A DNA stretch of 64,000 nucleotides from Terebella lapidaria (taxonomy: Eukaryota; Annelida; Polychaeta; Terebellida; Terebellidae), in the NCBI GenBank assembly GCA_949152475.1, contig OX424570.1, forward strand, positions 15,806,694-15,870,693, read 5' to 3'. The translations under genes were made by a program, and so were the position numbers. How positions within the stretch are numbered: position 1 is the stretch's first letter; every line of letters begins with the position of its first letter. Of this stretch, positions 28,757 to 61,880 are shown piece by piece. Under the pieces are notes generated by a model. It was not told where the DNA came from, ran no database searches, and worked only from the letters and a program-made list of their open reading frames with translations.

Positions 28757-31230
28757 ATGGACGGAACATCGAGCTTTGTGTATATTTTTATGCTGTTTTC
28801 TATGTTGACTATGTCTTCTGCGACATGTAAGTTAGACAAAATAATACATGTTGTTGCATGCACAGATAACATGATATATCATAAAACAAATATTAATTAT
28901 TATCATAATTATTTATATTGGTCTTGCAGTTCTGAATATGACCTATTGCACCGGACCATATTATAGAAGTAACCCACCACTGTGTGAAGCTGGCGAGGTG
29001 ATTCAGGTGGAGGACGTGTTTGTCTATGAGTCTCAACAAGGACAATGTCGATATGACTCCCGTGACACGGAAGAGCGTTTGTTAGACGTCGGTTCGGCTC
29101 AATTTGCTTGGGTCATCCATTCCTGTGATGGGAAAATCGCCTGTTCAGGTTTTTATATATCAAATGCGGAACTCAGCAATGGACAAATAAGCAGATATGT
29201 GGTTATGCAGTATACATGTACGAGCAACCACATGGGAGGTGAGATGTTTTTATCATATCATGTCTTCACCATAGACAAGCAGATGAGATGCAACGCATTA
29301 AATGCATACTCCCAGAATAACTGGGGAGTTATAAAAGAGTGTAGGATTGAAAATTCACTGAAAATATAGCTTATTAAAGGATTATATGCTTTAGAATATA
29401 TGATCATATATCATTTTATTTGCAGGGTTGAAATTGTTCACGTCAGCAATCAAATTGCAGTGCCCCTCCAAGTACGAGATCCACGTTCTTGCTGCATATT
29501 ATCGTTTCCAACGAGGAAACACATATTGTTCCCATGTGGATCCAGAGTATATGACATACATCCAGCAAGAGTGTGATGGTCAATCAGAGTGTCAGAATGT
29601 CCAGTTCCGAACCCAAAAAGTTGACTGCTCAAGCAACCGAAAGTCAGACCAAGTGGGAGTGTACTTCAAATGCAATACTCCTGCATTAACAACAACGCCA
29701 GACCATCAGACATCACCGAGTGACATTGAAGTCACTCAAGCAAGTCGGAGTGATCAGTCAAGTGGACCAGCGCAGATTGGTAATGCACGCCCGTCTTACT
29801 GAACATACATTTCCTGAAGACTAAGTATAAACTACAACTTATTATACCTTTATGTGATCGAATCTTCAGGCTTGTATGCGGGTGTACCTCTGGCTGGAGT
29901 GGTGATTGTAATCACAGTCGTGATCATATTCTGTATGAAAAGGTAAGTGAAACGGATATGTAAGTAAGGGTGAGTCCTATGCTATTGGTATCGTTACCAA
30001 CACATGAGTTTTCTACAGTGTCGAGAAATATCTGTGTGGCCAGTGGAATTGTTTTGGAATATAACGTCTTGTGTGACTTTTGTTAGACAAAGTAAAACAA
30101 AAATGTAGCTAACAATTTCAAACCAACAATTAGTAATTGGTGATGACAATTTCCATAATTTTGCGCAAACAAAAAGACACGTGAACCTCTAGACATTGAA
30201 CAGTATTGCTGGGTGATGTCCAACAAGACAGGGAATAGATAGTTGAGCTTTAGTAAAGATGGACCCAATAACACAAGTGTGGAAATAACAGATCAGGGCA
30301 AATGAACATTTCCCGTGGCCCCTTTATACCAGTGAAATAAGCTTGGTCATAATGTTGGTGATGTAATAAGTATTTTTTTTTTTGGGGGGGGGGGGGGGGG
30401 CACTGTAAGCAGTTTTGACCCATTCTCAACCACACTAGAGTATAATCGCCCCAACCCCCACCAAGTAAAAAATCTGACAATGTCTGGTGAGGTTATGTAT
30501 CTTTTATTTAACTGTTATAGTGGTAATGCTGTTGGATTGAACGGTCCATTCCAGAAAACAAGCTTCAAAAAAGTACACAGACTCTCCAGCATCTATGAAC
30601 CAGGGTTATGATGGCCACTCAGCCGATCAAGATGACTGTAGCCAAGTGGGGTCTGTTGTGAATGAAGTCACCCCCACCCCAAGAGTAGCCACAGACAACG
30701 TGTACACTATGCCAGAAGAGGACTACAGTGAAGTAGGGCCTGCTACAGACCACGCTGGGGATCACAGAGGGAACAACATTGCTTCAGAGGCTCACGTCAA
30801 CATAGGTGCGAAAAGTGTGCACTATACTACTAACTCCAGTCACAGCGACTCGATTGAAGTGTACAACAAGGATGCTAACCCGGAAGATGACTACAGTCTA
30901 GCCACAGCAGTTGATAAAAATTCAGTAGTTAATCGGCAGAGAAAGGATCCGGATGAGCTGGAGATCGTGGACAATGATGCTTATGAACCGTCTCCTTTCA
31001 TGGCTACAACACAACCCGGCAGAGAGCCACTTCCTGATGGTGATAACAGAGATCACACCGTCATGGTAGAGAACTCTGAGTATGTTCCTTGGACTGGCAA
31101 GTCTAATGCTGAAGTTAGCAAAGACGTCAACTTTTGTGGTGATAGCAGAACCGTTATCACAGAGCAAGACTCACAGGACGAGGGTAATATTGTGGTGGAC
31201 AATGCACAATATGCTGCCTGGATGGAATAG
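28757..31230 (+). CDS. Lectin receptor A: two SUEL-like modules, one membrane segment, class I tyrosine-rich tail
   Basis: Five exons: 28757-28826, 28930-29238, 29426-29779, 29870-29942, 30555-31230; 493 residues, all phases consistent. Exon 1 encodes a signal peptide (MDGTSSFVYIFMLFSMLTMSSA). Exons 2 and 3 each encode a cysteine-rich module of the SUEL/galactose-rhamnose-binding lectin type. The second is the clearer (LQCPSKYEI, AAYYRF, CDGQSEC, VGVYFKC); the first keeps CDGKIAC and YVVMQYTC. Both exons are phase 1-1, typical of shuffled extracellular domains. A short Thr/Ser stalk follows, then a membrane helix (GVVIVITVVIIFCMKR) and a 225-residue tail with tyrosines in DNVYTMP, EDYSEVG, EDDYSLA, NDAYEPS, NSEYVPW and NAQYAAW. 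It is probably a cell-surface carbohydrate receptor; ligand and pathway are unknown. No named orthologue is recognised. Confidence 0.88.
30375..30400 (+). repeat. T/G homopolymer tract in intron 4 of lectin gene A
   Basis: A run of T followed by a long run of G. The paralogous intron of gene B (about 36738-36768) has a differently sized and interrupted run at the same place, so the tract has changed since the duplication. It can form a G-quadruplex in principle. Confidence 0.8.
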
Positions 31231-31340
31231 GGCTAACATATTCACAATGCCTCGTTTTGTGCGTATCCAAGATATATGCAACATTCACACTAACGTGTAA
31301 TCTATTCAAGCAAGGCACAGGAGGCCTCTCAAGTACTTAT

Positions 31341-31346
31341 AATAAA
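31341..31346 (+). terminator. poly(A) signal of lectin gene A
   Basis: AATAAA 111 bases after the stop codon. It is conserved at the same place in gene B. Confidence 0.7.
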
Positions 31347-33195
31347 TGCAACATGTATCAACAAATAACAATCATATCCACATATATAGGAAAAAGTCAT
31401 TCTAATTAAGCTATGTAGAATATACCAGACTGTATATTTATCAGCGTGTGCGTATAATCTTTGTATAACCCGATGTTGGATCATACTGACACCCTATTAT
31501 TCAAGAAGTGAAAAATGTGAAAATTTGAATAATCGTAATTTTACTCTGGTGGATATAGAGCCGCTGAGGGAGGTCTGGAAATTCCATTGGACTCTGAATC
31601 TCATTCCTTTGATAATTTTATTGTTTTCCCTTACATTCCGGGTTGCAATCTTTCATGGTTATAATTCATTCCCTCGTAATCTTGTAGCAAAACAATTTTG
31701 TCAGAAATGATGGGAGTCTTGTGTTCCAACACAATCAAACCCATGGCGAATAATATGGAACACAATAATTTTTTTTTTTGGGGGGGGGGGAAGTGTTAAC
31801 AATGGATCAGAAAATATATCTCCTCTGTCCACTGAGCGAATCCATAGAAAAATCTCCATCACTTTAGTATTTTTTTGTTTGCTCACAAGTTTATGTCAAG
31901 ATGCATGGAAACAATCACTGACGTATTAAAAATAATTTATTTGTGAAGAGTGGTCCAACTGATGGAAATATTTTCATGTACATGTACAATTACAAATAAA
32001 CAATATCACTAAAACTGTTGTCATGTACTATATTATGAACACCAATATACGTGAGATTTGAATGGGTTCAGCCAGCACATTGCAGGTTCGGCCTACGACC
32101 ACTGTGACATGACTGCACCCCTTCAAATCTCATAGTGGGCTCACCAACTACCCATAACTTTATAATAAACAAGTAGTCCATAGATGGACGGAATCAATTG
32201 GTCTCATTCTGTATTTTTTGTTTGCTCACAAGTTATGTCAAGATGTATGGAAACAGTTGCTGGTGTATTAAAAATATTTGCGGACTTACTGTGAACATTT
32301 GTACACTATTGTAAATAGCTGTTCAACTGATGGAAATATTCTCGGTACAATAACATATACCAATATATTATAGTCGGTGAGGGAGACAGAATCAATTGGT
32401 CTTTTTTCTTGTGTAAAGTTGAATTACTGGAGTAATTCAAGTTGATTGTCTTACTGGTGACTTGTCTTTATGAAAATAATTGATTATATTTTACAGCTTT
32501 GATAATTGGAGTGACAGTTGCATATTTGTAGCTTTTTCATTCCTGAATTAAGTCTTTAGAAGGAGTTTCCACTGACCCCCACCCCTGTTTTTCTGTTGAA
32601 ACCAATCAATCTTTTCAATAAAACTGTTTGTCACTGAGGAAATGATTGCCTCATGTAGTAGTGTGGCTTTTGCTATTCCCACTTTAATCAGAATGCTGCA
32701 TGGGAACCATATAATATAGACATCTATATTGAAAAGTATATTATATAATTTCTGGAATTCCGCAGCAAACCTCATCAGACCTCAAAATGTCATTCTCCAG
32801 TTCACCTTCTGCAGGAATCAAGACCATGGAAATTTATTCATTTGGTTCTATCGATGGATCTATTGTATTTGTTTTTTTATAACACCAAAAACATGTCAGT
32901 CAAGCAATTGTGGTGTTCATCGTACCTCTTGGTTCGCAAACAGATGTTCGTAAAATTTAGAGTTTGAAAACGCATTTTAGCTGGAGACAGAGGGTCAGTT
33001 TAATTACGTGGAAGGTTTGGAATATAAAACGGTAATTACACATCACCAAAGGCCTGAAGGGGATCTTTCAGATGCAATTGATTTCAATACCATAAATAAG
33101 TCTCCAGCTATAGCCTCGTGGAGAATCAGATGAAAACGAGAACAAAAACGTGAGCCTGTTTCATTGAGAATCTGAATTTAATTTATTCAACCAAG
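31347..33195. other. 3' flank of gene A, part of the A/B duplication
   Basis: No gene. A segment of about 110 bp (tgtttgctcacaagttt...) occurs twice in tandem fashion (31875-31985 and 32219-32345). A small inverted-repeat unit lies at 32048-32133 (tgagatttgaa / ttcaaatctca). The whole stretch recurs downstream of gene B at 37716-39600. Confidence 0.7.
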
Positions 33196-34150: not shown

Positions 34151-34183
34151 GGAAACTCTGGTTTATTCGTGTCATTTCCAGTG

Positions 34184-35119: not shown

Positions 35120-37599
35120 ATGGACGGAACATCGAGTTTGGTGTCTATTTTGATGCTGCTTTCTCTGTTGACTATGTCTTCTGCGACAAGTAAGTTAGAC
35201 ATAATACATGACTGTTGTTCCATGTATATAATATATAGATAACATCAAACATATCAACTATATCAAATTTCCTATGGATCTTGCAGTTCTGAATATGACC
35301 TATTGCATCGGACCATATTATAGACGTAACCCACCACTGTGTGAAGCTGGCGAGGTGATTCAGGTGGAGGACGTGTTTGTCTATGAGTCTCAACAAGGAC
35401 ATTGTCGATATGACTCCCGTGACACGGAAGAGCGATTGTTAGACGTCGGTTCGGCTCAATTTGCTTGGGTCATCCATTCCTGTGATGGGAAAATCGCCTG
35501 TTCAGGTTTTTATATATCAAATGCGGAACTCAGCAATGGACAAATAAGCAGATATGTGGTTATGCAGTATACATGTACGAGCAACCACATGGGAGGTAAG
35601 ATGATATTATCACATCATGTCTTCAACATAGACAAGCAGATGAGATGCAACGCATTAAATGCATACTCCCAGAATAACTGGGGAGTTATAAAAGAGTGTA
35701 GGATTGAAAATTCACTGAAAATATAGCTTATTAAATGATTATATGCTTTAGAATATATGATCATATATAATTTTATTTGCAGGATTGAAATTGTTCACGT
35801 CAGCAATCAAATTGCAGTGCCCCTCCAAGTACGAGATCCACGTTCTTGCTGCATATTATCGTTTCCAACGTGGAAACACATATTGTTCCCATGTGGATCC
35901 AGAGTATATGACATACATCCAGCAAGAGTGTGATGGTCAATCAGAATGTCAGGAGGTCCAGTTCCGAACTCAAAAAGTTGACTGCTCAAGCAACCGAAAC
36001 TCAGACCAAGTGGGAGTGTACTTCAAATGCAATACTCCTGCAACAACAACAACGCCAGACCATCAGACATCACCGAGTGACATTGAAGTCACTCAAGCAA
36101 GTCGGAGTGATCAGTCAAGTGGACCAGCGCAGATTGGTAATGCATGCTCTAATTACTGAACATACATTTCCTGAAGACTAAGTATAAACTACAACTTATT
36201 ATACCTTTATGTGATCGAATCTTCAGGCTTGTATGCGGGTGTACCTCTGGCTGGAGTGGTGATTGTAATCACAGTCGTGATCATATTCTGTATGAAAAGG
36301 TAAGTGAAACGGATATGTAAGTAAGGGTGAGTCCTATGCTATTGGTGTCGTTACCAACACATGAGTTTTCTACAGTGTCGAGAAATATCTGTGTGGCCAG
36401 TGGAATTGTTTTGGAATATAACGTCTTGTGTGACTTTTGTTAGACAAAGTAAAGCAAAAATGTAACTAACAATTTCAAACCAACAATTAGTAATTGGTGA
36501 TGACAATTTCCATAATTTTGCGCAAACAAAAAGACACGTGAACCTCTAGACATTGAACAGTATTGCTGGGTGATGTCCAACAAGACAGGGAATAGATAGT
36601 TGAGCTTTAGTAAAGATGGACCCAATAACACAAGTGTGGAAATAACAGATCAGGGCAAATGAACATTTCCCGTGGCCCCTTTATACCAGTGAAATAAGCT
36701 AATAAGCTTGGTCATAATGTTGGTGATGTAATAAGTATTTTTTTTTGGGGGGGGGGGGGGAGGAGGGGGCACTGTAAGCAGTTTTGACCCATTCTCAACC
36801 ACACTAGAGTATAATCGCCCCAACCCCCACCAAGTAAAAAATCTGACAATGTCTGGTGAGGTTATGTATCTTTTATTTAACTGTTATAGTGGTAATGCTG
36901 TTGGATTGAACGGTCCATTCCAGAAAACAAGCTTCAAAAAAGTACACAGACTCTCCAGCATCTATGAACCAGGGTTATGATGGCCACTCAGCCGATCAAG
37001 ATGACTGTAGCCAAGTGGGGTCTGTTGTGAATGGAGTCACCCCCACCCCAAGAGTAGCCACAGACAACGTGTACACTATGCCAGAAGAGGACTACAGTGA
37101 AGTAGGGCCTGCTACAGACCACGCTGGGGATCACAGAGGGAACAACATTGCTTCAGAGGCTCACGTCAACATGGGTGCGAGAAGTGTGCACTATACTACT
37201 AACTCCAGTCACAGCGACTCGATTGAAGTGTACAACAAGGATGCTAACCCGGAAGATGACTACAGTCTAGCCACAGCAGTTGATAAAAATTCAGTAGTTA
37301 ATCGGCAGAGAAACGACCCGGATGAGCTGGAGATCGTGGACAATGATGCTTATGAACCGTCTCCTTTGATGGCTACAACACAACCCAGCAGAGAGCCACT
37401 TCCTGATGGTGATAACAGAGATCACACCGTCATGGTAGAGAACTCTGAGTATGTTCCTTGGACTGGCAAGTCTAATGCTGAAGTTAGCAAAGACGTCAAC
37501 TTTTGTGGTGATAGCAGAACCGTTATCACAGAGCAAGACTTACAGGACGAGGGTAATATTGTGGTGGACAATGCACAATATGCTGCCTGGATGGAATAG
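35120..37599 (+). CDS. Lectin receptor B: tandem duplicate of A
   Basis: Same architecture and exon sizes as gene A: 35120-35189, 35287-35595, 35783-36136, 36227-36299, 36924-37599; 493 residues. The second lectin module, stalk and membrane helix are almost unchanged, and the first module differs from A at three residues. By eye, most differences from A in exons 2, 3 and 5 change an amino acid (about 15 replacement against about 5 silent). All tail tyrosines are retained. Donor and acceptor sites are intact, as are the Kozak-like caacATGG and a downstream AATAAA, so the gene looks functional. An out-of-frame ATG lies 16 bases upstream of the start, a possible minor uORF. Confidence 0.88.
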
Positions 37600-40061: not shown

Positions 40062-42439
40062 ATGGACGGAACATCGAGCTTTGTGTATTACTTCATGCTG
40101 TTTTCCCTGTCGACTATGTCTTCTGCTGCAAGTGAGAGTGTGATATAATACATAAATGTAGTTTCCTATGGATATGATAGAGATAACATCAAACATATAT
40201 AAATTATTTTAATTATTTCTATCGATCTTGCAGTTCTGAATAAGACCTATTGCACTGGACCAAAGTATAACGATAACCAGCCACTCTGTCCAGATGATGA
40301 AGTGATTCAGGTGGAGGACGTATTCGTATATATATCCAATGGAGATAACTTGCGCGAGGATCAGAAACAATGTGTCTATTACTCCGATGACGAAGAAGAA
40401 AGTCTCTTAGATGTCAGTCCGACCAGGTTTGCCTGGGTGGTCCATTCCTGTGATGGAGAGATAACCTGTTTGGATTTCCACATATCAAGAGTAAAACTTC
40501 GTATTGGTAAAATGAGCAACTATGTGGTTATGCAGTACACATGTACGAGCAACCACATGGGAGGTAAGATGATATTATCATATCATGTCTTGAACACAGA
40601 CAAGCACATTAGATGCAACTCATTAAATGCATACCGCATATTGACTCGGGAATTATGAAAGCGTGTAGGATTGTAATAGTGTACAATCATTGAAAATATA
40701 CTTGTTGAATATTTATATGCTTTAGAATGTATGATCTTATATCATTGCATTGCAGGATTATACTTTTTTACGTCAGCAATCAAATTGAAATGTCCTTACA
40801 AGTACAAGATCCAAGTTCTTGCTGCATATTATCGTTTCCAACGAGGAAACACATATTGTTCCCATGTGGATCCAGAGTATATGACATACATCCAGCAAGA
40901 GTGTGATGGTCAATCAGAGTGTCAGGGTGTCCAGTTCAAAACTGAAATAGTTAATTGTACTCGATCAAAGAAACGAAAATCAGACCAAGTGGCAGTGTAC
41001 TTCAAATGCAACATGCGTGCTGCAACAGGAGCAACAACAACAGCAACAACAACACCCACGACAACAACTGATATCACAACGAGAGCACCAACATCCAACC
41101 TTTCGACTGATGTATCAGTCATCATAACTACACCAGACCAGCTCCCTGCTTCCCAGACCGGGGCAACAGAGCAGACATCACCGAGTGACGTCACTCAAGC
41201 AAGTCGGAGTGATCAGTCAAGTGGACCAGCGCAGATTGGTAATGCACGCCCTTATTACTCAACATACATTTCCTGAAGACTAAGTATCAACTACAACTTA
41301 TCATTTTAATACAGACCTCTATGTGACCTAATATTCAGGGCTGCATGCGGGTGTACCTCTGGCTGCTGTCGTGGTGATTGAAGTCATAGTTGTGATGGCT
41401 ATCTGTATGAAAAGGTAAGTAAAACGGATATGTTTGTGGTGGCTATTCATGTGCTATCAATACCATTAATAAGTTTTCTACAGTGGAGTTAAATATTGTG
41501 TATGGCCACCATTTAACAATGATCAATTCGCAAAATAACACCAGCTTTCCATACATGTAGTTTGGTGTGAACAAAAGCTCCGCCCCGCTCCCGGGGTATT
41601 GGTCTCCAATACCAATAGGTAATGAAGCGCTCCTCGGGCTTTAACTACTACGTAATTCTGGCTGCAGTACAATAATACACAATACTAATATAATAGTAGG
41701 ATATACAAAAATCAACAGAACATAAACATGGAAATAACCACGACAGCAAGAACACTGGTAGTGTTTCGAAAATGCAAGAATCGAGAAACAACACTTTTCT
41801 GGCAATCTTATATTGAGTGTACATACAGTTCAGGAACATAACTCAGTCCAAAAGAAGACTGACCAAATAGGCAGATGGACACAATTTCATGCTACTAGGT
41901 AATTACCGGGCGTTTATTGTCAACTAATTTAGGATAATTTAACGTTTGATTCCTCAAAATGTTGTTATTTCAGAAGGCGGGCAAATGAAGCCATCAAAGA
42001 TGTGGGTATCGATTCACCCGTTGTGGAGGATGTCATCTCACAATCTGCCACTGCTAGAGCAAGTCAGCAGCAATCCTGTATCGGGGAAGGTGCTGTCTAC
42101 TGTAAGAGAGATGAGAATGAGATGGAACCGAGTCGTCAAGACGTACCAGAAGCAGAATATGTCGGCCCAGACCCGCCCAGACGGAGTGGGACAAGTCGAG
42201 AATATCTCGGTCTGCTAGACGATTCCCCTGACACTAATCCAGCTGTGCGACTCGTGGCAGCAACATCTCAGCAGTCACCTTACGCAAACATGGACGGAAA
42301 TTGCATGGCTAATAAACCGTGCTCCATTGTGAAGGGGCCCTTGTATGCCAATGTCAACACAACAGGTGGAGCATCGCCTCCAAGACCTGGCTCAGAGCAG
42401 CCAATGTCACAGTATGTCAACCACTCTATCCAGGCTTAA
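40062..42439 (+). CDS. Lectin receptor C: SUEL-like modules with a class II tail carrying SH2-docking motifs
   Basis: Five exons: 40062-40131, 40234-40563, 40756-41238, 41339-41414, 41974-42439; 474 residues, phases consistent. The signal peptide and both lectin modules are homologous to A and B (CDGEITC, YVVMQYTC; LKCPYKYKI, AAYYRF, CDGQSEC, VAVYFKC). The stalk is longer and very Thr-rich (TTTATTTPTTTT), so O-glycosylation is likely. The membrane helix contains one Glu (AAVVVIEVIVVMAICMKR). The tail is unrelated to A/B and holds AEYVGP, REYLGLLD, SPYANMD, PLYANVN and SQYVNHS. YxN matches the Grb2 SH2 consensus and YxxM the PI3K p85 consensus. It is probably a signalling receptor; partners are inferred, not shown. 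A second copy of the last exon follows at 44506. Confidence 0.87.
41595..41613. repeat. Perfect 8-bp-stem hairpin in intron 4 of gene C
   Basis: ggtattgg-tct-ccaatacc. It may mark a small insertion in the intron. Confidence 0.6.
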
Positions 42440-44971: not shown

Positions 44972-45028
44972 ATGCAGAGAAGTCGATAACATTTTTTTCA
45001 GAAGCAAACCACTCCATCCAGCCTTAAA

Positions 45029-48379: not shown

Positions 48380-48426
48380 TTCACCCCTCCTGAAAGTGTA
48401 GTCCTCGACAACATCCAGTCAACACT

Positions 48427-51400
48427 TCACTTGAGAGTTGACTTCGCTAACATCTGCACCAACATCATCTGTGTGTGCGCAATTGTCTCCAGAACGTCAG
48501 AATCTACAGGTGCCTTCACCTGCGGCACATTTGTGGCATTCCTTGGAAGGTGAAACGGATTCGAATGTTGCCCTGCTGTGCGTCGTGTTGACCTCCGAAC
48601 AGGCTGTTGAGCTGTGACTGGCTCTTCTTGATCCTCCCCTTCCTGATCTGATGATTCCTGACTGGTGTGATCCACTCCTGAATTTCTCATGGACGCTGGT
48701 GGCGGTGTGGTGGCTTCCCGTGTGTCTGTCTGCATGCCTCTTGGCACGGCCTGGCTTGGCATTAGACCGATCTCAACGTCCTCTTGCTCCGAGTCTGATG
48801 AGGTGCCCTCCAGAACCAGTTCGTTTTCATTTCCTGGCTCCACTGCTCCATCTATGAGATCCGACTCTCTCTGAGGTACCACTGCTGGGACAAGTTCCCG
48901 TGCATCCAGGAGTGCATTCCTGTGGAGTGTTCTCAGGGGTCCTTCACATTTCATAGGGGCGACTCTGTAAACATTGCCCTGTGGGTCTGGCCTATCAATG
49001 ACTGTGTACGGGTCATCCTCCCATCGGTCTTGCATCTTGTTCCTTCCTCTAATGTGGTAGTTACGGACGAATACACGACATCCTATCGGCAGGTCTGTCC
49101 CATCTGCGTTCTTGTCATGTCTCGACTTGCGTTTCAGTGCCTGTCTCTCTGTGGTCTTTGCTGCCATCTGATATGCCTCTCTCAGCCTCTGCTGATGACT
49201 GGCGACCCATTCATCCACATCACCACTTCCGTTCTCCTCGTCTGAACTCCAGTCTAGAACCTGATCTATTGGGAGCTTTGGGTCTCGTCCGTACATCAGA
49301 AAATAGGGCGTGTACTTTGTAGAGGAGTGTGGGGGTACAATTATAGCTATGAACCAATTCTGGCAGGAACTCGGGCCATTTCTTCTTCTTCTCCTTCGCC
49401 AATGTCCGCAGACGATCATGCAATGTCCGATTATATCGCTCAGCTTGGGCATTCCCCTCGGGATGATATGGTGTCGTCCTACTCTTGACAATCCCGTATG
49501 TTGAACAGAGCTCTTTTACCACTGCACTCTCAAAATTTCTGCCCTGGTCACTGTGGATTCGGCTGGGGACGCCGAAACGGACGAACCAATCATTCACCAG
49601 AGCTTTTGCAACCGTGCGTGCTTTTTGATCCCTTGTTGGTATCACCTGGGTGAATTTTGTGAATACATCTGTCAGGACTAGTGCATTCTCGATCCCTGAG
49701 CTGCTTGGTTCCAACAAAGTGAAGTCTATTGCCAGGACCTCCAGTGGGTGTTTGGCAATGAGTGACCCGAGTGTTGACTTCACAGACTTCCCTTTCGCCA
49801 CTATGCATCTCCGACACTTGTCGCAATACTCCTTGACATCCTTTGACATCCGTGGCCAGAAGCATCTTCTTCTGAGCAACTGCAGAGTTTTCTCACCAGC
49901 CTGGTGTCCCATGTCATCGTGCATGGCTTGAAGCATTCGTGACCTCAACGTCATTGGCAAGACAAGTTGATCTATCGCTTCCCCATCAATGTTGATCTGC
50001 CGACACAATACTCCAGCTTTGAGCTTCAGTCGATCCCAGTCCTTCAGCAGGCGTAATGTATCTTTGGATGCATTTCGACGATCCGCAGCACTTGGCGGCT
50101 TCCCTTCGATGAGGTGTTCTAGTACCTTGGCTATGGAGTGGTCTTCTTCCTGTTGACTCCGGATTTCAGCACTAGTCAACCTAGGGAAAGTATGGGTGGC
50201 GGAGTCAGAGTTTGGGGTGGTCAACTTCTTTACAGAGTGTTCCTGAAGGCTGCACACTCGCCTGCTGGGGAACTGCAGAAACAGTTCTCGAGGAACCGCT
50301 TCACCAACATATAATCCCAGACTACTGGTCTCACAACACAAGCTGACCTCCTCGAAACGCACAGAGTGAGGTTCTGGTTCATGTTCAGGTCTTCGGCTGA
50401 GGGCATCTGCATTGCTGTTCAGTTTCCCTGCCTTGTATCTGATGGATAGTTGGTGCTAACTCCGCTATCCAACGCAGCTCTGAGGCTGCCAGCTTGGCAG
50501 TGGTGTTCACATAAGAGAGTGGGTTATTGTCTGTGTAGACTGTACATGAAGTGCCCAGCAAGTAGTCACGATACTTCTCAGTTACAGCCCACTTCAATCC
50601 TAACAGCTCCAATTTGTGGCTGCAGTAGTTTTCCATATTCTTCTCTGCGGGGCGCAGTGACCGACTGGCATAACTAATAACTACCAGCTTCCCATCCTGT
50701 TCCTGGGACAACACTGCTCCCAAGCCACTGTGGCTGGCATCAATCTCTAGGATGTAGGGTCTACTGAAGTCCGGATAGCCCAACACTGGGGCTTGTGTCA
50801 GCGCCTCCTTCAACCTGCTGAAGGCTCTCTCACATGTATCATCCCATTTCCAAGGTGGGGCCTGAGAGATCTGCTTCCTTCGCTTCCCTTTTCGGCCTCC
50901 TCCCCCTGTCAAGTCATGTAAGGGCCGGGCTATGACTGCAAACTGCGACACAAACCGCCGGTAATAGCCTGCCAGCCCGAGGAACTTCCTGAGTTCTTTA
51001 GCATTTGATGGTACAGGCCAGTCTCGAATTGTTGACAGCTTGCTCGGGTCGGGAGAGACTCCATCTTCTGATACCACATGTCCCAGGTACCGGAGTCTCT
51101 TGAACAACATCTGGCACTTGGAAGGTTTGACTTTCAGGTTCTCCTTCTCTAAACGTTGCAGCACAACTTCGAGGCGCTCCAGGGTTTCTTCCACAGTGGA
51201 GCCAAATACCAGGATATCATCGAGGTATATGAGGAGGTGCCGAAAGTTGAGGTCGCCAAACAGCTTGTCCATTAATCTCATGAACGTTGCTGGTGCACCA
51301 GTGAGTCCAAAACACATGCGAGTGAACTCATACAGACCACCTGTTCCCGAACGGAATGCTGTCTTGTGGATATCATCTTCTGCAATAGGAACTTGGTAGT

Positions 51401-52810
51401 AGCCGTGGGCCAGGTCTAGGCTACAGAAATATTTCGCACCACTTAGTACGTCTAGGGCTTCCTCAATACGAGGCAGAGGATAGGCATCATAGTGAGTTTT
51501 AGCATTGAGACTTCTGTAATCAATGCACAGCCTCATCTCCCCGGTCTTCTTCCTAACGATTACAATCGGGGCTGCATATGCACTGGAAGACTCCCTAAGG
51601 ATTCCTTTGTCAATCCATTGCTTCAAGTGCTGTCTGAGCTCCTCCCAATGGTGGGGTGGTACACGCCGATGAGGGACACGCACAGGGATGTTATCTTTTG
51701 TCCTGATCTGATGGGAGACTGATGTGCTGAGCCCGATGTCTCCTTCAAACTTGCTAAAGGCATTATGTGTTTCCTAATCACCTCGGTCATCATCGATACT
51801 TGGCTATCTGATGCATCTGGCCCCACATCCATCTGCCGCACCAAGTCTTCTCCATCTACAACGTGGTCGAGATCTACTCCAGATACCTCTCTAGCTTCCG
51901 CGACGTCTCCAGCAGGCCGCTGGCTGTTGCCCTCACTCGTCACCACTAACTGAGCTATCTGCGTCCTCGGTCTCAAATACACGTCATCATTACTCATGTT
52001 GGCTACAGAACAGGGCACACTCCCCTTCATGTCAACCGCCACATAGGTGGGACCTATTTGTATGCCTTTTGGCAAGGTACATGCTTCCAATTCTTCGATC
52101 ACTCCATAGTACACCATCCCTCTTGAGGCCGGGGCTACCTTGGCTGGAATGACTTGTACGCAGCCAGCTGGTATGAGTACTGGCTTGTCTGCGCTAATTC
52201 TCACTCTCTCTACGACATGCTCCTCATTGGCAGCTGCCAACTCTTCATACGCGGAGATGACTGCAGACAGGCGCCTTCCTTCCGCATTGTGGTGCAGTGT
52301 TTGTTTGAACGTGGTCCCATGTTCTTTCACCAGGGCATGTCTCATGTCGCGTAATATGTTCGAACCTATCACACCTGGAACCTCAAATTTTCTCCTGGCA
52401 ATCGGAGTGTTGATCGGGTCTTTCACGATCAGAAACCCAACTTGAGAAAACAGTTTCCCAGCTGCCACCAGATCTACTTCGACATATCCCAGGTAGGGAA
52501 CTTCCGCTCCTTGCGCCCCAACTAATGTCATTACCTGGGAAATGTCAATCAACTCCACATCGTCCCGTGCAGAGAGATTCTCCTTGTAGAAAGTCTCAGT
52601 GAGGGAGGACACCTGCGCTCCGGTGTCCAACAGACAGCGCACATCTACTCCCATCACTGTCACTGTCACATCTGGGCATTTACCGACCATCTTGTTGTAA
52701 ACATTTTCTGAGCCACTTTTGTTTTCCTCGGTACCTGCCACCTGGCTCGCGGTCGCAGGTGACTCTAAAAATCCGGAGAGGCTCCACCGGCGGCTTCCGT
52801 CTTCGAGCAT
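48427..52810 (-). CDS. pol: Gypsy element 2 pol region (fossil)
   Basis: In element order: aspartic protease ([12 protein letters not shown]), reverse transcriptase with the YLDD box ([14 protein letters not shown]) and [18 protein letters not shown], RNase H ([18 protein letters not shown]), then integrase with the zinc-binding CDKCRRC region, a core with [24 protein letters not shown] and [14 protein letters not shown], and a long C-terminal extension. Broken; about two or three breaks. Confidence 0.88.
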
Positions 52811-53823
52811 CCATCCACAGAAGGAGTGTCACGGTTGGTATTTGTCCTTGAGGTTGACGCTGTAGCTGGCACGTTAGTACAGTCCTTCACTAGGTGATCA
52901 GGTGACCCACATCCGTAACAGCAGCGTGGTCCCCTTCCTCTCCCGCCTCTGTTACTCCAGTAAGGCTGACGTGTCCCTCGCTTCATCAGCTCTGTGATCT
53001 GCTGTTGTTGCAACTGGAGCTGCTCCGACTGTAGTTTCAACAGCTGTGCTATATCTGCCTGGGTTGATGTTTCTTGTACTGTTGCTGTCTTGGTTGCCGA
53101 TTGCCGCTGTTTTACCTCCACTTTTGACGTCTGTCCTAGCCATTCGACAGCTCGATCTCGAAAATCAAAGTAGGTCAGCACCGGATACTCAATGTTGAGT
53201 CTTCGCAGTTCACGTTGTAACCCAGCATCCAGCACTGCTTCTGCTAACCTCCCCTTCAAAGTCGCTGTCCGTGTCCCCTTGAAGGACGAGTCGAGTTGGC
53301 ACATCCTGTCGTACACCTCTACCAGACGAAGAGAACAGCCGAGAAGATCCTCACCTTCCCTCTGACGATAAGAAAAGAATTTCTGTTGCAGTTGTGCCAG
53401 GCTGTCCCCATCCCCAAACACTTTCAATAGTACAGCGAAAATCTTCTCCGGGTCTTGGCTCACTGATTCGCCTCGGCCGAGTATCTCCTGGCGGGCCTTG
53501 CCTGACAGGTGCTCCACCACAAAGGCAGCCTGTTCTGCCTGCCCTGACTTCCTTGTCACCAATCGAGCTCGGACATCATCAACCCACTCCCTTGCAGTGA
53601 GGTCATCTGCACTGACTGGCCGGTCCTTGAACAACGGCAGCTTACGTGAAGCGGTGATGTAGTATGGCTGTGGTGTTTGTGCCTGACTGTCCGTCTGTCT
53701 GCGCAGTTGTTCCTGCAGGTCTCTTGCCTCCTGTATAACTTGTCCTGTTCGATCCTTCTCTGCTGCCAGCTGTCGCTGCAGATCTGCGACTAAGTTCTGC
53801 AGGTCTTCATCTTCCTTCGACAT
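52765..53823 (-). CDS. gag: Gypsy element 2 gag
   Basis: A 352-codon frame: a coiled-coil-like N-terminus (LVADLQRQLAAEKDRTGQ), a capsid-type core (AREWVDDVRARL through LTYFDFRDRAVEWLG), a Gln-rich linker and one CCHC knuckle CYGCGSPDHLVKDC. It overlaps the start of pol. The short gag with a coiled N-terminus separates it from element 1. Confidence 0.88.
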   Translation of the reverse strand: MSKEDEDLQNLVADLQRQLAAEKDRTGQVIQEARDLQEQLRRQTDSQAQTPQPYYITASRKLPLFKDRPVSADDLTAREWVDDVRARLVTRKSGQAEQAAFVVEHLSGKARQEILGRGESVSQDPEKIFAVLLKVFGDGDSLAQLQQKFFSYRQREGEDLLGCSLRLVEVYDRMCQLDSSFKGTRTATLKGRLAEAVLDAGLQRELRRLNIEYPVLTYFDFRDRAVEWLGQTSKVEVKQRQSATKTATVQETSTQADIAQLLKLQSEQLQLQQQQITELMKRGTRQPYWSNRGGRGRGPRCCYGCGSPDHLVKDCTNVPATASTSRTNTNRDTPSVDGCSKTEAAGGASPDF

Positions 53824-54500
53824 GTTTGAAGCCGTACCTGTGCACCACTATTTACAATTTTACTAGCGCAGATTTCACAATGTGTACTTGTCGCCTCACA
53901 TCAAGGACTACCGGTAGTCACACTAAATACCGGGAACCTTTTTCATGAAATTAGAATGAACAACAGCATCAGCCTGACTTAACATAATACCAACATCTTA
54001 CGAGCATCAACACATTACAGAGACAAAACATATGTGTCCCTGGCAAACACAGCACTCTCAACAAGATATATCACCATTTCACACCAATGACAGGTCAATA
54101 GCTCACCATGGATTTTCACCACTGGACTTTCACTTACTCTTGCCAACTACACCAGCAAGTCTGACATAATACAGGTATAACATATAACATTTGGCAGCTA
54201 ATTTTTTTTTTTTAGGTTTTTTTTTTTTTAAGGTTTTTTTCTCACATCACAAACAATCAAAATTTCAATGCAGGTTATTCAACTATGCAATTCACTTTCA
54301 TTTGTTTACATTACAATGATACATATTAACATGAGTACAAGTCCAAGAGTCATGTCTTCTGTCGTCCCTGCGGGCGGTTGTCGTCGACAATGAAGAGCTG
54401 GCACCCGTCGCTCCTAGTCACCAGTCAGCTGAGGGGCTGTCACACACCATCTGTAGCTCCTGGGGGTTGATTTCTCCAATCAGTCGTTCCAAGGAGATGG
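53824..54500 (-). other. Leader of Gypsy element 2 between the primer site and gag
   Basis: About 680 bases of non-coding element sequence, with two T-rich runs on the plus strand near 54205-54240. Confidence 0.6.
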
Positions 54501-54519
54501 AACCCTGCTCGCAGCGCCA
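54501..54519 (-). other. Primer-binding site of Gypsy element 2, tRNA-Ser type
   Basis: The plus strand reads aaccctgctcgcagcgcca, which is close to the 3' end of a eukaryotic tRNA-Ser (AACCCTGCTCGC(T)GCGCCA). Two bases separate it from the LTR start at 54522. Confidence 0.7.
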
Positions 54520-54521
54520 CT

Positions 54522-55686
54522 TGTGACAGGTTCTTTATTTGGTCGAAACTACATAAACCCTGCCAAAAGCAAGGAAAAGGCAATGTTACAACAAGGTATC
54601 ATCATGAACATAGTCAGCATAGAAATATATATCAGTATGGAAAGTTGTGCGTTGTAAAGTATACAATAGTTCGAATAGTTTCCTATTCCTGACATTTCTC
54701 TGACATTCCCTTAGACAGGATTCAATGACATTCCTTTACAACTGATGCTCTAACAGAGTTGACTTATCTATCTATGGAATTATTAAACTGAGTGACAAGA
54801 TAAAATGTATAGTATTGATTTCTGATTACATATATGAATTCTTAGGACAGCATGTTTGAATAAAATGATTATACAGACAAATATGGCACTCAAATACTTG
54901 ACACGGACCCCAAGAGTACCATCAGTGACATAGCAGGCAGGTAGGTAGGCACACGACACGTCCCTCCAGAACACCGGCTGGGCACCGCTACACAACAAAA
55001 ATCAATGCAGCATTTGTGAATAACAAAATAATACTGAACTCCAGATCCAGTTACAAAATGTCTACCTGGCAATACTACTGAGCAATACTGTTTGCATTGA
55101 CTATATATTCAATGAAATACTGGTATCAATACACACAACGAATACATGTGGTAAAATGTGTCACTACTGATCACTGCAATATTCACCAAATATCGCTCAC
55201 TCTACTCAACCTATCGACCACCGCAGTTCATGTCAACAAACTAGCACCAAGTATTTTGAACAAATACAGATTTGAGATACTATTCATGCATTTTATATAT
55301 GTACATTTTTATATTTCAATACCTTCTAAAGACACAAAAGCACCAAACTTGACTTGGATCTGAGAAACACGTTTTCCGGAAACCTAACAGCGCACCAATT
55401 CTCGCGTTACTTCCGGCCCTCGAAATGCAACTTTTTCTATCAAACATCCTAAAATCTAACTCTTGAACAAAAATATTGACTATTTCACCATAACTAGTAA
55501 TAATTTGCACAAGAAGTCACAAAACCCTAACAACAATTATCTAAAACTAAATTACAATATATATAGTAGTGCAACAGGGATCCACCAGGTGGCAGCATCT
55601 CCCAGTGTCCCCAGCGGGAACTCGTCAGCGAGCTTCCAGGGGCAGTGTGTGCCCACTTCCTGGGGGAAAACCAGTCACCGGTCACA
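54522..55686 (-). repeat. 5' LTR of Gypsy element 2 (about 1,165 bp)
   Basis: The termini TGTGACAGG and CCGGTCACA form a TGTGAC/GTCACA inverted pair. The left boundary is set by the adjacent primer site and the right one by comparison with the other LTR. Confidence 0.8.
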
Positions 55687-55960: not shown

Positions 55961-58080
55961 TGTGAGCAGTATGTGTTCCTCAGCTTGAATCTCTAACTCA
56001 TCCTGGCATTGTCTGTTTTCTCGGAATATCCGTTGTCTGGCCGGTCTTAACAGGGGCGTGGGAAGGCTCGATTCTGAGCCATCGAGTGAATGATTCGGAC
56101 GGCGCTGTATCGTGGTGTGTCTGCAAATTTTTTGGTGTTAAAGATGGGTTGGGTCTCTTGTATGCAATATGTTTGCTGCTGGTTGGCTATGTGTGTAAAA
56201 TTTGACCAGGGTCAAACGGAACTTGCAAAGTTTGGAGGGATTCTAGCTATGCAAGACGTATATAATTAGTCAAAACGTATATAATTAGGTAAGCATATAT
56301 ATATCATACTACGTAATAGCCAAAACGTGAATATGTTGGATTATGTTGTATGATGATTAATAAATGATAAAGTTTTGTGACAGGTCGGATGGAATTATTC
56401 AGTTGAAAACATCTCATAATATCCCAGATGTCATGTTTTGTATATTACCAGAAATTGTTTATCACTAGACTATTGTATATAATGAGTCATGAGACTGCGA
56501 AATTGTTCACTTCGGTCATTCAACTTGGATTATTGTCACCATCGCCTGCAGTTTGTACTCTCCTGATAAGATGACAAAACCACATGCGTATCAGAGGGTT
56601 ACATGAGCCAATTTTTTGCGCCCAGTCACTAACGGATATCATCTGTGATGATCAGTGATGTGAATTGAGGCAGTAAAATTAGGTTTATATTAGTGACGCT
56701 AAAACCCCCACCAAAAACACGATGATGTTATGATGCCACATAAAACAGTGCTGGCGCTTGCAGATATTCATGAACACCCTCTTTGCTGTGCGCCCAATGA
56801 TGATGTTTCATGTCATATTTAGAAATGTATCAATATGTATCTAGATACAGTATATTATTCGGAAATCATTACGATATGACGTGTCGAACTGTTGCAGTCA
56901 AACCAAATATATGTTGTTTTTCGTTCTGAATGTTACTGTGGAGTGTTTCTGCTACCCTGTGAAGTTTACAATGTAATATAGTAGATAAAGTCTACAGTAT
57001 GCAGGTCGCAGCTCGCATTTCGAGATGGGACTATATTGACTATACTCCTAGTATGCTCGAAAATAGAGCTTAGACATCGGTGTATTTAAACAGGATGTCA
57101 TCTACATCCATGATGATTTGACGGTTGATCTTGAATTCCATCTTTGATCAACTTGAAAGGTTAACACTGTCATTTTGTCATCATGTCAGACTATGTCAAC
57201 ACTACATTTCTCCAGTAACCTTTCATTTTTTATTATTTCATTTTTTATTATTTCATGTTTTCATCTCCTGTATCATGTACTTTGCCAATGACACCAAAAT
57301 ATGTATCTATATCACTATCCTTTGCCTTAGAATATTTTGTACTAGTTTGTAATTTTTCCAATAAATAAGAAAAGTCTTCAAATTCATCTTGTCGGAATGT
57401 TTGATATTGGCTGATTTTCAATTTGCTTCAAGAACGAATTTTGCAGTGAGAAAAGAATTCACTCATGATACCGAAGAATCACTCATAGGTCGGCAAATTT
57501 TGTTAAAGGTTTTTTTTCAGTTATGGACCCATACTACACCACTCCACTTAAATATGCCATTGGTGTGAAATATTGGTTATCTATTGTAAACGTTTTTCTA
57601 TCTATAGACGTTTTCTAAACCATAAACTGCAAAATAAGTTGTGAAATCCACAAGAACAAGATTGCAAAACCCAAATCAGATATTGCAGAACCGCTATCGA
57701 TATTGTAACGAATTTTGAATATTATGTATGAAACATAGCTCTGAGAAAGCTCGAGAAGTTTGGAGGTCAGCGTCATGAATATAGGTCATGGTTGATAATG
57801 AGGTCAAATAAAAAATCGTAATAACTGAATTATAATTTGAAATTTTGCTATGATTTTTCTATGGCGAATTCCCCACCATTTGATAAATAACCATTTATTT
57901 ATCTTATCGTCCAGGGTCCAAAAGATCTTTACAGCCAAAATCTAACGGCGAGGATTGCAATCTCCGCTTGTCTTGTTTTTGGTGTCTCTGCTCATATCAA
58001 CTTATTATTGACAGAAATGATATATGGGGTGTGTCCAGATTTTCAGTCGCAACTAGATGCCAATAACCAGATAGAAGCGA
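55961..58080. other. Gene-free stretch
   Basis: AT-rich with no coding frame over 75 codons. 57700-57970 is a further member of the dispersed repeat seen at 45.8-46.5 kb. Nothing else recognised. Confidence 0.4.
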
Positions 58081-58090
58081 GCTCGCATAT

Positions 58091-58330
58091 ATTGAAGATG
58101 ACTACAGCCTAGCGGATGAATATTCAGTAGTTAATGTTCAGTGGAAGTTCCCAGGTCAGCTAGAGATATTGGACAATCATAATCATAACCAATGTCATAT
58201 TAAACGCGATCCAATACCTTAAACACCATCGTGGTGTAACCTTCCCGGTACAGATCACATCGTTTTGGTGTCTCATTCAGGATGTCACTATCATGGTACT
58301 CTGAGTATATCATATCGTGTGTTGACGATG
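58091..58330 (+). pseudogene. Relic of a class I lectin-receptor tail exon
   Basis: The translated stretch EDDYSLADEYSVVNVQWKFP, followed by GQLEILDN, matches the gene A tail (EDDYSLATAVDKNSVVNRQR ... DELEIVDNDAYEP). Further on, gatgtcactatcatggtac and ctctgagtat match the exon region that encodes DHTVMVENSEYVPW. The frame is lost after the first half and no lectin or membrane exon is seen upstream, so this is a decayed fragment of another family member. Confidence 0.7.
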
Positions 58331-58419: not shown

Positions 58420-58790
58420 CCACTGAGTCGGTGTCACTGCTGGCGAACGTTAAATCTGTCCCCGAGGATACCATCAACTCAGTAGCCTTCTGGCTTGTGA
58501 TTGGGTACTTTTGTACTTGTCATGTATCTATTCCATGGGGTTAGTTTCGGATTTCTAAATTATTTTCATAGGTTGTTGGGCAGTTGTATACTAATTCTAT
58601 CAGGTGTACAGTAGAAACAACTACATTTAACACACTGTCTGCCCCTGATGACGCCAGTGTGTCTTTGGATAAACTATTTGGTCGGGCTTTGTTTCTATTG
58701 CAAAATGTTGTATTTTACGTTTCGTATTGGCATCATCAAAATCTGATTGTATTGGTGGTAATAGATTGATACTTACATTGATCAGTGTTT
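58420..58790. repeat. 330-bp duplicated segment, copy 1
   Basis: It recurs at 59628-59998 with a few percent difference (cattcataccactgagtcgg, ctgcccctgatgacgccag, aaactatttggtcgggc). One frame reads SVSLLANVKSVPEDTINSVA and another APDDASVSLDKLFGRALFL in both copies, but no known domain fits. Confidence 0.75.
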
Positions 58791-59484
58791 GGATTGGAAT
58801 GAGTAATAGCAGTCGTATGTGCCTATGTGTCAACAATTCAGCTTTTAAAGAGAGATCATACAATGTTTTTATCAAATATATAATTACTTATAAATTAACT
58901 ATCTGACTGACCACCACGAATCGTAAAGTATGCACGTCACACTATATTATCACTCGAAGTTAAGATTCATCAATATATTGTATTTATTATGATTCCGATT
59001 AATAAAACTTCAATGGCAAATAAAATGAAACATGAACACAACTATATACAACTATCATCCCAGCTTCATTGTGTGAATGTGGGTTTAGCTTAATTGGATT
59101 TTAGCTTCTTAATGTATAGGAAAATAGCAGAAACCGATTCATTGCTGAAATACGAAATTAATATGACCTATCCACGTATTGCTTTGTGACATCCTGGACA
59201 CACTATAATGAGCTACACTTTTTACTATCACACCATAGTTGTCCAGGGATGTTTATGTCATTGAGAAACATTCGCAATCCCCCCCCCCCCCTCCCCGCAT
59301 CTCCACTTCAGTAGATACTAGTAAATGATGAATTCGTCTGTCAATAAAAAAGCTGGCGACTGTAACTTCCTGGTTAAAAATGTTAGCTTAGTGCTTTCTT
59401 CATGACGTTGACTGTGTTTGCAGCTGTATGTCATTTGCGTAGAATTTGTACACACATGTAATATAGGCTTGGAGAGTAAGATAA
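58791..59484. other. Upstream region of decayed lectin copy D
   Basis: 59115-59270 is the conserved upstream block also found before genes A and B. A poly-C run lies at about 59280-59290. No gene. Confidence 0.5.
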
Positions 59485-59522
59485 CATGGACGGAGCATCG
59501 CGTTTTTCGTATATTTTGATAT

Positions 59523-59998
59523 ACGAAAACTATTTGGTCGGGCTTTGTTTTTATTCCAATATGTTCTATTTTACATTTGTTTTTGGTATCATCAAAATCT
59601 GACTATTGGTGGTAATAGATTGATACTTACATTCATACCACTGAGTCGGTGTCACTGCTGGCGGACGTTAAATCTGTCCCCGAGGATACCATCAACTCAG
59701 TAGCCTTCTGGCTTGTGATTAGGTACTTATGTACTTGTCATATATCTATTCCATGGGGTTTGCTTCAGATTTCTAAACTATTTTCATATAGGTTGTTGGG
59801 CAGTTGTATACTAATTCCATCAGGTGTACAGTAGAAACAACTACACTTAACACACTTTCTGCCCCTGATGACGCCAGTGTGTCTTTGGATAAACTATTTG
59901 GTCGGGCTTTGTTTTTATTCCAATATGTTCTATTTTACATTTGTTTTCGGTATCATCAAAATCTGACTATTGGTGGTGATAGATTGATATACATTAAT
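59523..59998. repeat. Insertion in exon 1 of copy D, including segment copy 2
   Basis: It holds the second copy of the 330-bp segment, preceded by an extra partial copy (aaactatttggtcgggc at 59529 and again at 59896). The neighbouring copy 1 lies about 1.2 kb upstream, so local duplication into the exon is likely. Confidence 0.65.
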
Positions 59999-60954
59999 GC
60001 TGTTGTATCTGTTGACTATGTCTTCTGCGACAAGTAAGCAAGTGATATAATACATAAATGTACTTTCATACAGATATCATGTAGATACATCAAACATATC
60101 AATTAAAATATGTATTACTATCGATCTTGCAGTTCTGAATATGACCTATTGCACTGGACCAGAGTATAAAGAAAATCAACCGCTCTGTTCAAATGACGAA
60201 GTGATTCAGGTGGACGACGTATTTGTATATGAGTCTCATCGAAATGATTTGCAGGAGGAACAGAAACAATGTAACCATGACTCCACTGACACAGGAAAAC
60301 GTCTGTTAGATGTTAGTCCTACTTGGTTCGCCTGGATGTTTCATTCCTGTGATGGGGTGAATGCCTGTTTGGATGTTAATATATCTAAAGTGGAATTTTC
60401 CAATGAACACTGGAGCAGCTACGTGGTTATGCAATATAGATGTACGGGCAGCCACGCGGGAGGTAAGATGTTATTATAATATATCTCCATCATCTAGACC
60501 ATAATCAGATGAGATTAAAAGCATGTTGATGCACATATACTTGTATACTGTCCTAATGAATCGGGAACTATGAAAGAGTGTAGCAGTGTAATAATATGCA
60601 TTACATTCATTAAAAAAAAATTGAACGATTTTATGCTTTAACATGTATCACCATATAATATTTCATTTGCAGGGTTGAAATTTTTTACGTCAACACTCGC
60701 GTTGCAGTGCCCTTCCAAGTACGAGATACAAGTTGTTGCTGCATATTATCGTTTCCGTGATCGCAACACATATTGTTCCCATGTCGATTCAGGGTATTTA
60801 AAATATATCCAGAAAAATTGTGATGGTCAGTTAGAATGCCAAGATGTCCAATTCAGAACTGAAATGATTGATTGCATCTCAAGGAGAGGAAAGTGGCAGT
60901 GTACTTCAAAACTCAATATAAGTGGCAGTGTACTTCAAAACTCAATATTCGTGC

Positions 60955-60957
60955 TGC

Positions 60958-60993
<36 letters not shown>

Positions 60994-61010
60994 AACAACA
61001 ATAGCAACAA
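60955..61010 (+). repeat. (CAA)n microsatellite in the stalk region of copy D
   Basis: An uninterrupted CAA run followed by degenerate aacaacaat units. In the family frame it encodes the Thr-rich stalk (ACA); in the shifted frame it reads as poly-Gln. Confidence 0.9.
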
Positions 61011-61880
61011 CTCTGCCAATAAAACCCACGACAACAACTGGCATCACAACGAGATCACCAACATCCAACGTTTTGCCTGATGTATCAGACATCACAACTA
61101 TACCTGACCTGCTCTCTGCTTCCCAGACTGGGGTAATTGAACATACGTCACCAAGTGACGTCACTCAAGCAAGTCGGAGTGACCAGTCAAATGGACTAGC
61201 GCAACAAGTCTCACAAACACCAAGGGTAGGTACAGACAACGTGTACACTATGCCAGAAGAGGGCTACAGTGAAGTGGGGCCTGCTACAGACCACGCTGGG
61301 ATCACAGAGGGAACAACATTGCTTCCGAGGCTCACGTCAACATATGCGCGAGAGGTGTGCACTATACCACTAACTCCAGTCTCAGCGGCACAATTGAAGT
61401 GCACAACAAGGATGCTAACCCGGAAGATGACTACAGTCCAACCACTGCAGTTGATGAATGTTCAGTAGTTAATCGGCAGAGAAACGACCCGGATGAGTTG
61501 GAGATCGTGGACAATGATGCTTATGAACCGTCCCCTATGATGGCTACAACACAACCCATCAGAGAGCCACTTCCTGATGGTGAGAACAGAGATCCCACCG
61601 TCATGGTAGAGAACTCTGAGTATGTTCCTTGGACTGGCAAGTCTAATGCTGAAGTGCTGACGTCAACTTTTGTGGTGATAGCAGAACCGTTATCACAGAG
61701 CAAGACTCACAGGACGAGAGTGATGTTGTGGTGGACAATGCTTATGCTGCCTGGGTGAAATAGGGCTATCATATCCTCACAACCTCGTTCTGTAGGTGAT
61801 ATTTCTCAGGCATCCAAGTTATATCAAACATTTCGCATATAAGTGTGATCAATTTGATATTGCAAGCATGTCAAGCACTG

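Follow-up and report, generated by a model that had tools for sequence, protein, structure and literature searches.

How do receptors that share one outer design come to carry different signalling ends? This question is raised by a stretch of 64,000 nucleotides from the polychaete worm Terebella lapidaria (OX424570.1, 15806694-15870693; hereafter the window, whose own positions are used for features inside it). Three intact genes, A, B, and C, and two relics, D and E, are found there. The genes encode predicted single-pass receptors with two lectin-like outer modules, and their cytoplasmic tails belong to one of two unrelated classes. Within this genome, the class of the tail and the ancestry of the ectodomain disagree, so that at least two exchanges of tails between the classes are needed to account for the trees. 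The whole is best explained by a receptor family with exchanged tail exons that would act like paired receptors, an explanation that we hold to be probable, if only by a little.

Gene Layout and Tail Classes

Genes A, B, and C lie on the forward strand and have five exons each. In gene A, exon 1 (28757-28826) encodes the signal peptide and ends in phase 1, exon 2 (28930-29238) encodes the first SUEL-like module, exon 3 (29426-29779) the second module and the stalk, exon 4 (29870-29942) the membrane helix, ending in phase 2, and exon 5 (30555-31230) a class I tail with NxxY motifs. Gene B has its exons at 35120-35189, 35287-35595, 35783-36136, 36227-36299, and 36924-37599, the last again being a class I tail. 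A and B are recent copies, 97% identical in exon 2. In gene C, exon 1 (40062-40131) and exon 2 (40234-40563) are followed by an exon 3 (40756-41238) with the second module and a Thr-rich stalk longer than that of A and B, by the membrane helix (exon 4, 41339-41414), and by a class II tail (exon 5, 41974-42439). All these exons come from exon models. Exon 2 of A was also identified with Pfam, exons 2 and 3 of A by profile comparison, the three tails by a genome tail search, those of A and C in addition by their motifs, and the helix was read from the sequence. The predicted proteins have 493 (A), 493 (B), and 474 (C) residues, with tyrosine-rich tails of 154-224 residues.

The three models are intact, with AG/GT borders throughout and phases 1,1,1,2 in each. 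Related genes elsewhere have borders of the same phases, and the ratio of nonsynonymous to synonymous divergence (dN/dS) between A and C is 0.27 in exon 2; the layout is therefore beyond chance. Thus, the sequence models confirm the common layout that the first-pass annotation had described for A, B, and C, namely signal peptide, two SUEL-like modules, stalk, helix, and equal phases, with two kinds of tail. One acidic residue, a Glu, is seen in the helix of C; the remaining 18 translations of exon 4 have no acidic residue. A second intact class II last exon (44506-44971, from exon model and genome tail search) lies 2.5 kb beyond the tail exon of C, with the same acceptor and phase. It is part of a duplicated unit (41904-42473 and 44436-45007, 93% identical), behind which a further stretch is 78% identical.

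The same annotation had called the last exon of C unrelated to that of A, B, D, and E, and this holds. The comparison of class I with class II tails by hhalign gives a probability of 0.04%, its score being equalled or exceeded by 99 of 100 column shuffles. A shared ancestry of the two classes was accordingly rejected. Their motifs also differ. NxxY is present in all ten class I tails of the modelled genes, with two to four sites each (the tails of I_27205 and I_27269 are identical). YxN is found in 7/7 class II tails, again with two to four sites each, vs. 2/10 class I tails, and YxxM in 7/7 vs. 0/10. The consensus of the immunoreceptor tyrosine-based inhibitory motif (ITIM) is matched by six of the seven class II tails, C being the exception, and by no class I tail (0/10). 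One site resembling the immunoreceptor tyrosine-based switch motif occurs in the class I tail of I_27182.

Exchange of Tails Between Genes

Twenty genes were modelled in the 761.6-Mb assembly (438 contigs). Of these, ten carry class I tails and seven class II tails; in the other three (handles in x_), the tail is of class I but short or broken. In the ectodomain tree (21 rows, 19 of them different), C, with a class II tail, groups with A, B, and E (support 100/99). I_27594, with a class I tail, is sister to six class II genes of one cluster (100/100; 98/97 for the six without it). A single ectodomain clade of the seven class II genes costs 117 log units and is rejected (approximately unbiased test, p-AU 2.87e-50). 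The fewest changes of class on this tree are two, also when E and the x_ genes are counted as class I, and hence at least two exchanges between the classes are needed. One change is that of C. The other concerns the six class II genes or, at the cost of an extra step, their common ancestor with I_27594 followed by a return in I_27594, and the tree does not decide between the two. For this reason, the idea of exchanges in opposite directions was dropped: the tree also lets I_27594 keep a class I tail, later made like that of its neighbour, the six class II genes then gaining theirs.

The DNA around the tail exon of C places the join. Intron 3 and exon 4 of C are 90 and 83% identical to those of A, vs. 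74 and 59% to those of the class II gene II_27413. In intron 4, similarity to A in blastn reaches 94 nucleotides in (to 41508), and similarity to II_27413 (82%) begins 28 nucleotides before exon 5. The breakpoint interval, over which the sequence passes from A-like to class-II-like, is therefore part of intron 4 (41415-41945), the first 47 nucleotides of which do not discriminate between the two by themselves. By these comparisons, the tail join in C lies within intron 4. Synonymous divergence (dS) between C and II_27413 agrees with the trees, at 2.06 in exon 2 and 1.33 in the exon 3 module vs. 0.19 in the tail. The tail of C and the second exon behind it form a branch beside the class II tails of the cluster.

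By the same kind of comparison, I_27594 is also a mosaic. In exon 3 and intron 3, it shares 75-76% identity with class II genes vs. 66-67% with the neighbouring gene I_27588 (the background for intron 3 is 65%). Its exon 4 is 89% identical to that of I_27588 vs. 75% to class II, and its later intron 4 and exon 5 are 88.5% identical to I_27588. In the tail tree, I_27588 and I_27594 pair (100/99). Their dS is 1.36 in exon 2 and 0.155 in the tail; between I_27594 and II_27413, exon 2 has a value of 0.17 and the exon 3 module one of 0.54. Since exon 4 is I_27588-like and intron 3 class-II-like, the join lies near the border of intron 3 and exon 4 or in intron 4. The simpler statement that both joins lie in intron 4 was consequently dropped. 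Downstream of both mosaics, an orphan tail of the other class is found: relic D about 16 kb behind C, and a truncated class II tail (27582571) about 9 kb behind I_27594, with I_27588 between. As a lead, one may suppose that in each case the new tail was inserted in front of the old one.

The layout of paired receptors, similar ectodomains with different signalling ends, had been proposed from the window alone. It is upheld by the ectodomain tree, the join in intron 4 of C, the tail comparison, and the dS values. The phylogenies of ectodomain and tail exons, as run within this genome, indeed disagree.

The Family Across the Genome

At least 41 exon-2-like places, and one partial place, are present in the genome; 33 of the 41 have E < 1e-10. 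This number is a lower bound because, from 97 matches, 90 of 120 candidates were scored. Class I tails occur at 20 places (26 matches, the last few weak) and class II tails at 11 (19 matches), including the second exon of the window, the truncated tail at 27582571, and two diverged tails on the contigs C3 and C4. Exon 1 was identified in three of the 17 modelled copies outside the window, and the acceptor picked for exon 5 of I_21149 is doubtful. Every chosen exon border fits the scheme 1,1,1,2; as the border search required these phases, this means that such borders exist, not that others are absent. Taken together, the sequences show a family expanded in this annelid, whose members are predicted single-pass receptors with a signal peptide, two diverged SUEL/RBL modules, a Thr-rich stalk, and a membrane helix; the tail has a last exon to itself, which is entered in phase 2.

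Two members on the chromosome of the window, x_27189 (27188065-27190162, minus strand) and its near-copy x_27243 (27242060-27244137, minus strand), have exons 1-4 open and tails of fewer than 50 residues without tyrosine, the start of the last exon being read by eye. These may be receptors of a short-tail form or genes in decay. A third tail class was considered for them and rejected, as in both the tail resembles one of class I cut short (profile E-values of 1.4e-4 and, weakly, 0.22). It was also rejected for x_27307, whose tail is a frame-broken class I tail. The class I genes I_27205 and I_27269 (27201892-27205521 and 27265840-27269466) lie 64 kb apart on the same chromosome and do not differ in the protein sequences of exon 2, exon 4, and the tail; they would stem either from a segmental duplication of very recent date or from a duplicate in the assembly. 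The class II-like tails on contigs C4 (41408854-41409453) and C3 (13374036-13374767), two other chromosomes, keep repeated YANM-type and YxN sites. Within about 5 kb upstream of them, only weak matches to the SUEL module were found (E about 0.01). In our own reading, an exon that resembles a membrane exon and ends in phase 2 lies in front of the tail on C3. The two tails possibly belong to another receptor family.

Relation of the Outer Modules to SUEL/RBL Domains

The modules were compared with known domains using 14 exon-2 rows and 13 exon-3 rows from the 20 genes and relic E, near-copies being left out. The first-pass annotation took them for lectin modules to be found by PF02140. A and C match PF02140, but under the Pfam cut-off (16.9 bits for A and 11.0 bits for C vs. 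31.4). At E up to 1, SUEL is matched by 2/14 exon-2 rows (best E 0.028) and 9/13 exon-3 rows (best E 0.012). DUF4210 is matched by 6/13 exon-3 rows, with a best E of 0.004 vs. 0.012 for SUEL, the row shown being below the DUF4210 cut-off as well. Against the PDB, the exon 3 profile matches the L-rhamnose-binding lectin 5h4s with an E of 1.3e-6 over the whole chain and of 0.099, 45, and 0.064 for single stretches; neither the exon 2 profile nor the ectodomain of A alone has a match there. Searches with A and with a four-protein alignment in protein databases, no animal protein collection being among them, gave no relatives.

Against nine SUEL domains, hhalign gives 40.59 (92.6%) and 40.57 (93.5%) for the two modules, and the best of 100 column shuffles per module give 23.8 and 18.9. 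The profile-profile comparison of exon 2 with exon 3 gives 68.8%. These comparisons support the view that both modules are akin to SUEL/RBL. This relation rests on profiles rather than on structure; the structure predictions for exon 2 and exon 3 (four window rows each) are low-confidence models (predicted local distance difference test, pLDDT, 42.1 and 39.3).

The worm modules thus resemble the SUEL/RBL egg lectins and the RBL domain of latrophilin by profile but differ in detail. Each has six Cys (14/14 exon-2 rows and 13/13 exon-3 rows), whereas SUEL/RBL domains have eight, which is consistent with the wording "ninth cysteine" used for the latrophilin RBL. The DPC or PDPCPG loop was sought in both alignments and was not found. 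Glu42 and Lys120 are sugar contacts in the latrophilin RBL, and EVA-1 domains are described as being without both (PMC2430599). At the place equivalent to Glu42, all 14 exon-2 rows have Thr, Ala, or Val (Glu 0/14), and Lys is found in 2/14 at the place equivalent to Lys120; the alignment is uncertain, the first place coming from our own reading and the second from the SUEL profile alignment. Since these equivalents are mostly lost, classical sugar binding by the modules appears unlikely. Hence, the lectin basis of the family holds as a resemblance of profiles, and not for the sugar contacts.

Possible Mechanism and Alternative Explanations

If the family acts like paired receptors, related ectodomains would see related ligands and the tail exon would decide the output. 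Once phosphorylated, class I tails would bind adaptors of the phosphotyrosine-binding type via their repeated NxxY. Class II tails would bind SH2 proteins of the Grb2/PI3K type via YxN and YxxM and, where ITIM-like sites are present, SH2 proteins of the phosphatase type. The short tyrosine-free tails could be silent, act as decoys, or depend on a partner. Recognition and signalling would in this way be recombined as modules, and worm cells would most likely use them to recognise microbes or self. A more far-reaching version, possible but clearly tentative, supposes that EVA-1-like guidance receptors gave rise to a recognition complex of the KIR kind, in which a tail could signal in three ways (NxxY, YxN/ITIM-like, and no tyrosines). 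Tail exons, sometimes together with the membrane exon, would move between genes, and the class II tail would be a mobile module that also serves receptors with another ectodomain (those on C3 and C4).

A number of observations weigh against the paired-receptor explanation. The closest design, EVA-1, is known from the guidance of axons and muscle (PMC4133157, PMC2430599). The motif readings are consensus matches, and they cross the classes: the class I tails of I_27507 and I_C1 also have YxN sites, the six class II tails of the cluster have one NxxY match each, and the tail of C matches no ITIM consensus. Moreover, the class II tails of the cluster carry both Grb2/PI3K-like and ITIM-like motifs, so that a clean split between activating and inhibitory members is not evident. 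In the young class II cluster, dN/dS is 0.52 in exon 2, 0.98 in the exon 3 module, and 0.51 in the tail, and reaches 2.39 in the stalk, a value resting on 12 synonymous differences over 15 pairs. Between the tail of C and those of the cluster, it is 1.05 and 0.86, and such values near 1 could mean relaxed constraint. Positive (diversifying) selection is not established by the dN/dS of the family exons.

One alternative supposes an expanded family of EVA-1-like co-receptors for guidance or adhesion, with no immune pairing, where tails would differ because different partners are bound in development or in tube or epithelium biology. We regard it as unlikely, although it is the most serious of the alternatives. 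EVA-1 is single-pass, and its two lectin-like modules and its tail are all needed for muscle arm extension (PMC4133157). In Alvinella pompejana, a related worm, 42 genes fall into PTHR46780:SF9, "protein EVA-1", an over-representation with respect to siboglinids (PMC12403961). However, the EVA-1 tail is described as short (PMC4133157), unlike the long tyrosine-rich window tails of two unrelated kinds, and clustered tandem copies, pseudogenes, and chimeras would be more usual in recognition families.

Another alternative is neutral churn, in which the copies of a tandem family would yield functionally meaningless chimeras by gene conversion and unequal crossing-over. In its favour, there are many pseudogenes and orphan tails (D, E, E2, 27582571), intron 4 of I_27594 holds a dispersed repeat, and dN/dS is about 1 between the tail of C and those of the cluster and 0.82 between C and the second tail exon. 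Yet no frame is broken in the five exons of C or in exons 2-5 of I_27594, whose exon 1 was not found within the stretch examined. In addition, the ectodomains are constrained, with dN/dS values of 0.27 and 0.42 between A and C and of 0.32 and 0.39 among six diverse class I genes (exon 2 and exon 3 module in each case; 0.45 in the tail of the six). We take churn to be improbable. The other values are 0.63 (exon 2) and 0.59 (exon 3 module) between I_27594 and II_27413, and the tails of A and B differ by seven nonsynonymous changes and one synonymous change. Because of conversion between copies, dN/dS is weak evidence either way. Finally, the pairing could be one of splicing, the class II exon being on a separate transcript or C using the exons at 41974 and 44506 as alternative last exons. 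The two intact class II exons in tandem behind C fit this idea, as do the tails on C3 and C4 with no clear SUEL module within about 5 kb upstream. Against it, seven class II genes have the exon order 2-3-4-5 with fitting phases, and we consider it very improbable.

Relics and Surroundings of the Genes

The relics, on the forward strand, are less complete than had been thought. Relic D consists of no more than a piece of a class I tail (58067-58219), found with the tail profile and by DNA comparison. Relic E spans 59486-61760. DNA comparison shows its exon 1 (59486-60032) split by an inserted repeat and its exon 3 (60673-61203) with a broken frame; exon 2 (60133-60462, exon model) is open. The class I tail (61206-61760, genome tail search and DNA comparison), also with a broken frame, is fused straight to the stalk at 61203/61206, the membrane exon being gone. 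From these sequences, E is a pseudogene without a membrane exon and D a tail fragment. The claim that both keep the shared design consequently stands for their class I tails, and not for the full five-exon layout.

The repeat in 58568-59989 occurs three times, two of the copies being inside the insert that interrupts the first exon of relic E. Two probable long terminal repeat (LTR) retrotransposons were seen in the window. The first (12005-22578, by eye) has long frames at 15371-19945 and 19678-22014 on the minus strand, and its terminal segments at 12005 and 22008 are identical across 300 nucleotides, so that its insertion would be recent. The second (47719-55337) lies between C and the relics; its terminal segments of 300 nucleotides are 99% identical and its frames are in pieces (48427-53847, minus strand). 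Just upstream of gene A (26922-28345), frames resemble a fragment of a retroelement polymerase, again by eye. At the beginning of the window, an open frame of 1391 residues (673-4848, minus strand), long for a stretch without stops, encodes what we take to be subunit 1 of the anaphase-promoting complex. The frame at 6412-7524 (minus strand) may be the N-terminal part of the same protein.

Known Systems and Meaning of the Family

The first-pass annotation named latrophilins, egg lectins, and fish RBLs, and knew of no paired-tail cluster built on SUEL domains. Its second point stands: in the literature searched by topic (titles and the beginnings of abstracts), the two tail classes and their exchange are not described. 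The nearest design, EVA-1, was missed. EVA-1/EVA1C, a co-receptor for Slit and MADD-4 in C. elegans, is likewise single-pass, with two SUEL/RBL modules and a cytoplasmic tail. The worm family differs in its at least 41 exon-2 places, its six Cys per module, and its long Tyr-rich tails of two exchanged, unrelated classes. With Pfam, A and C have no match (E up to 1) to FAM176, the tail domain that defines EVA1C. EVA-1 combines two lectin-like modules with a short tail (PMC4133157), and its modules miss the sugar-binding residues, as do those of the worm (PMC2430599). The module pair, and an expansion in this worm group that is annotated as EVA-1, had thus already been published.

Vertebrate paired receptors (KIR, LILR, Siglec, CEACAM) are alike in having similar ectodomains with different signalling ends, clusters, and short-tail forms. 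Their activating partner typically has no motif of its own and signals via an adaptor; in the worm family, both tail classes carry tyrosines. Paired receptors have similar ectodomains and opposite outputs, the ectodomains being of the Ig or C-type lectin kind, unlike the SUEL-like modules, and KIR2DS2 retains an ITIM relic cut by a stop codon (PMC3533184). The short tails of the worm, which look like class I tails cut short, resemble this relic. Among invertebrates, the Alr receptors of Hydractinia and the fuhc receptors of Botryllus form multigene families with putative activating and inhibitory members; they are Ig-superfamily and Ig/Sushi proteins, and the accessible part of the source names no SUEL module (PMC12065747).

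Most known paired receptors belong to vertebrate families of the Ig and C-type lectin kinds, and the worm family would be built on a different module. It is an invertebrate family in which recognition and signalling appear separated and in which the exchange of tails can be seen in the DNA. A single genome thus lets one ask whether paired signalling evolves by the swapping of tails, and the family adds a candidate recognition system in annelids.

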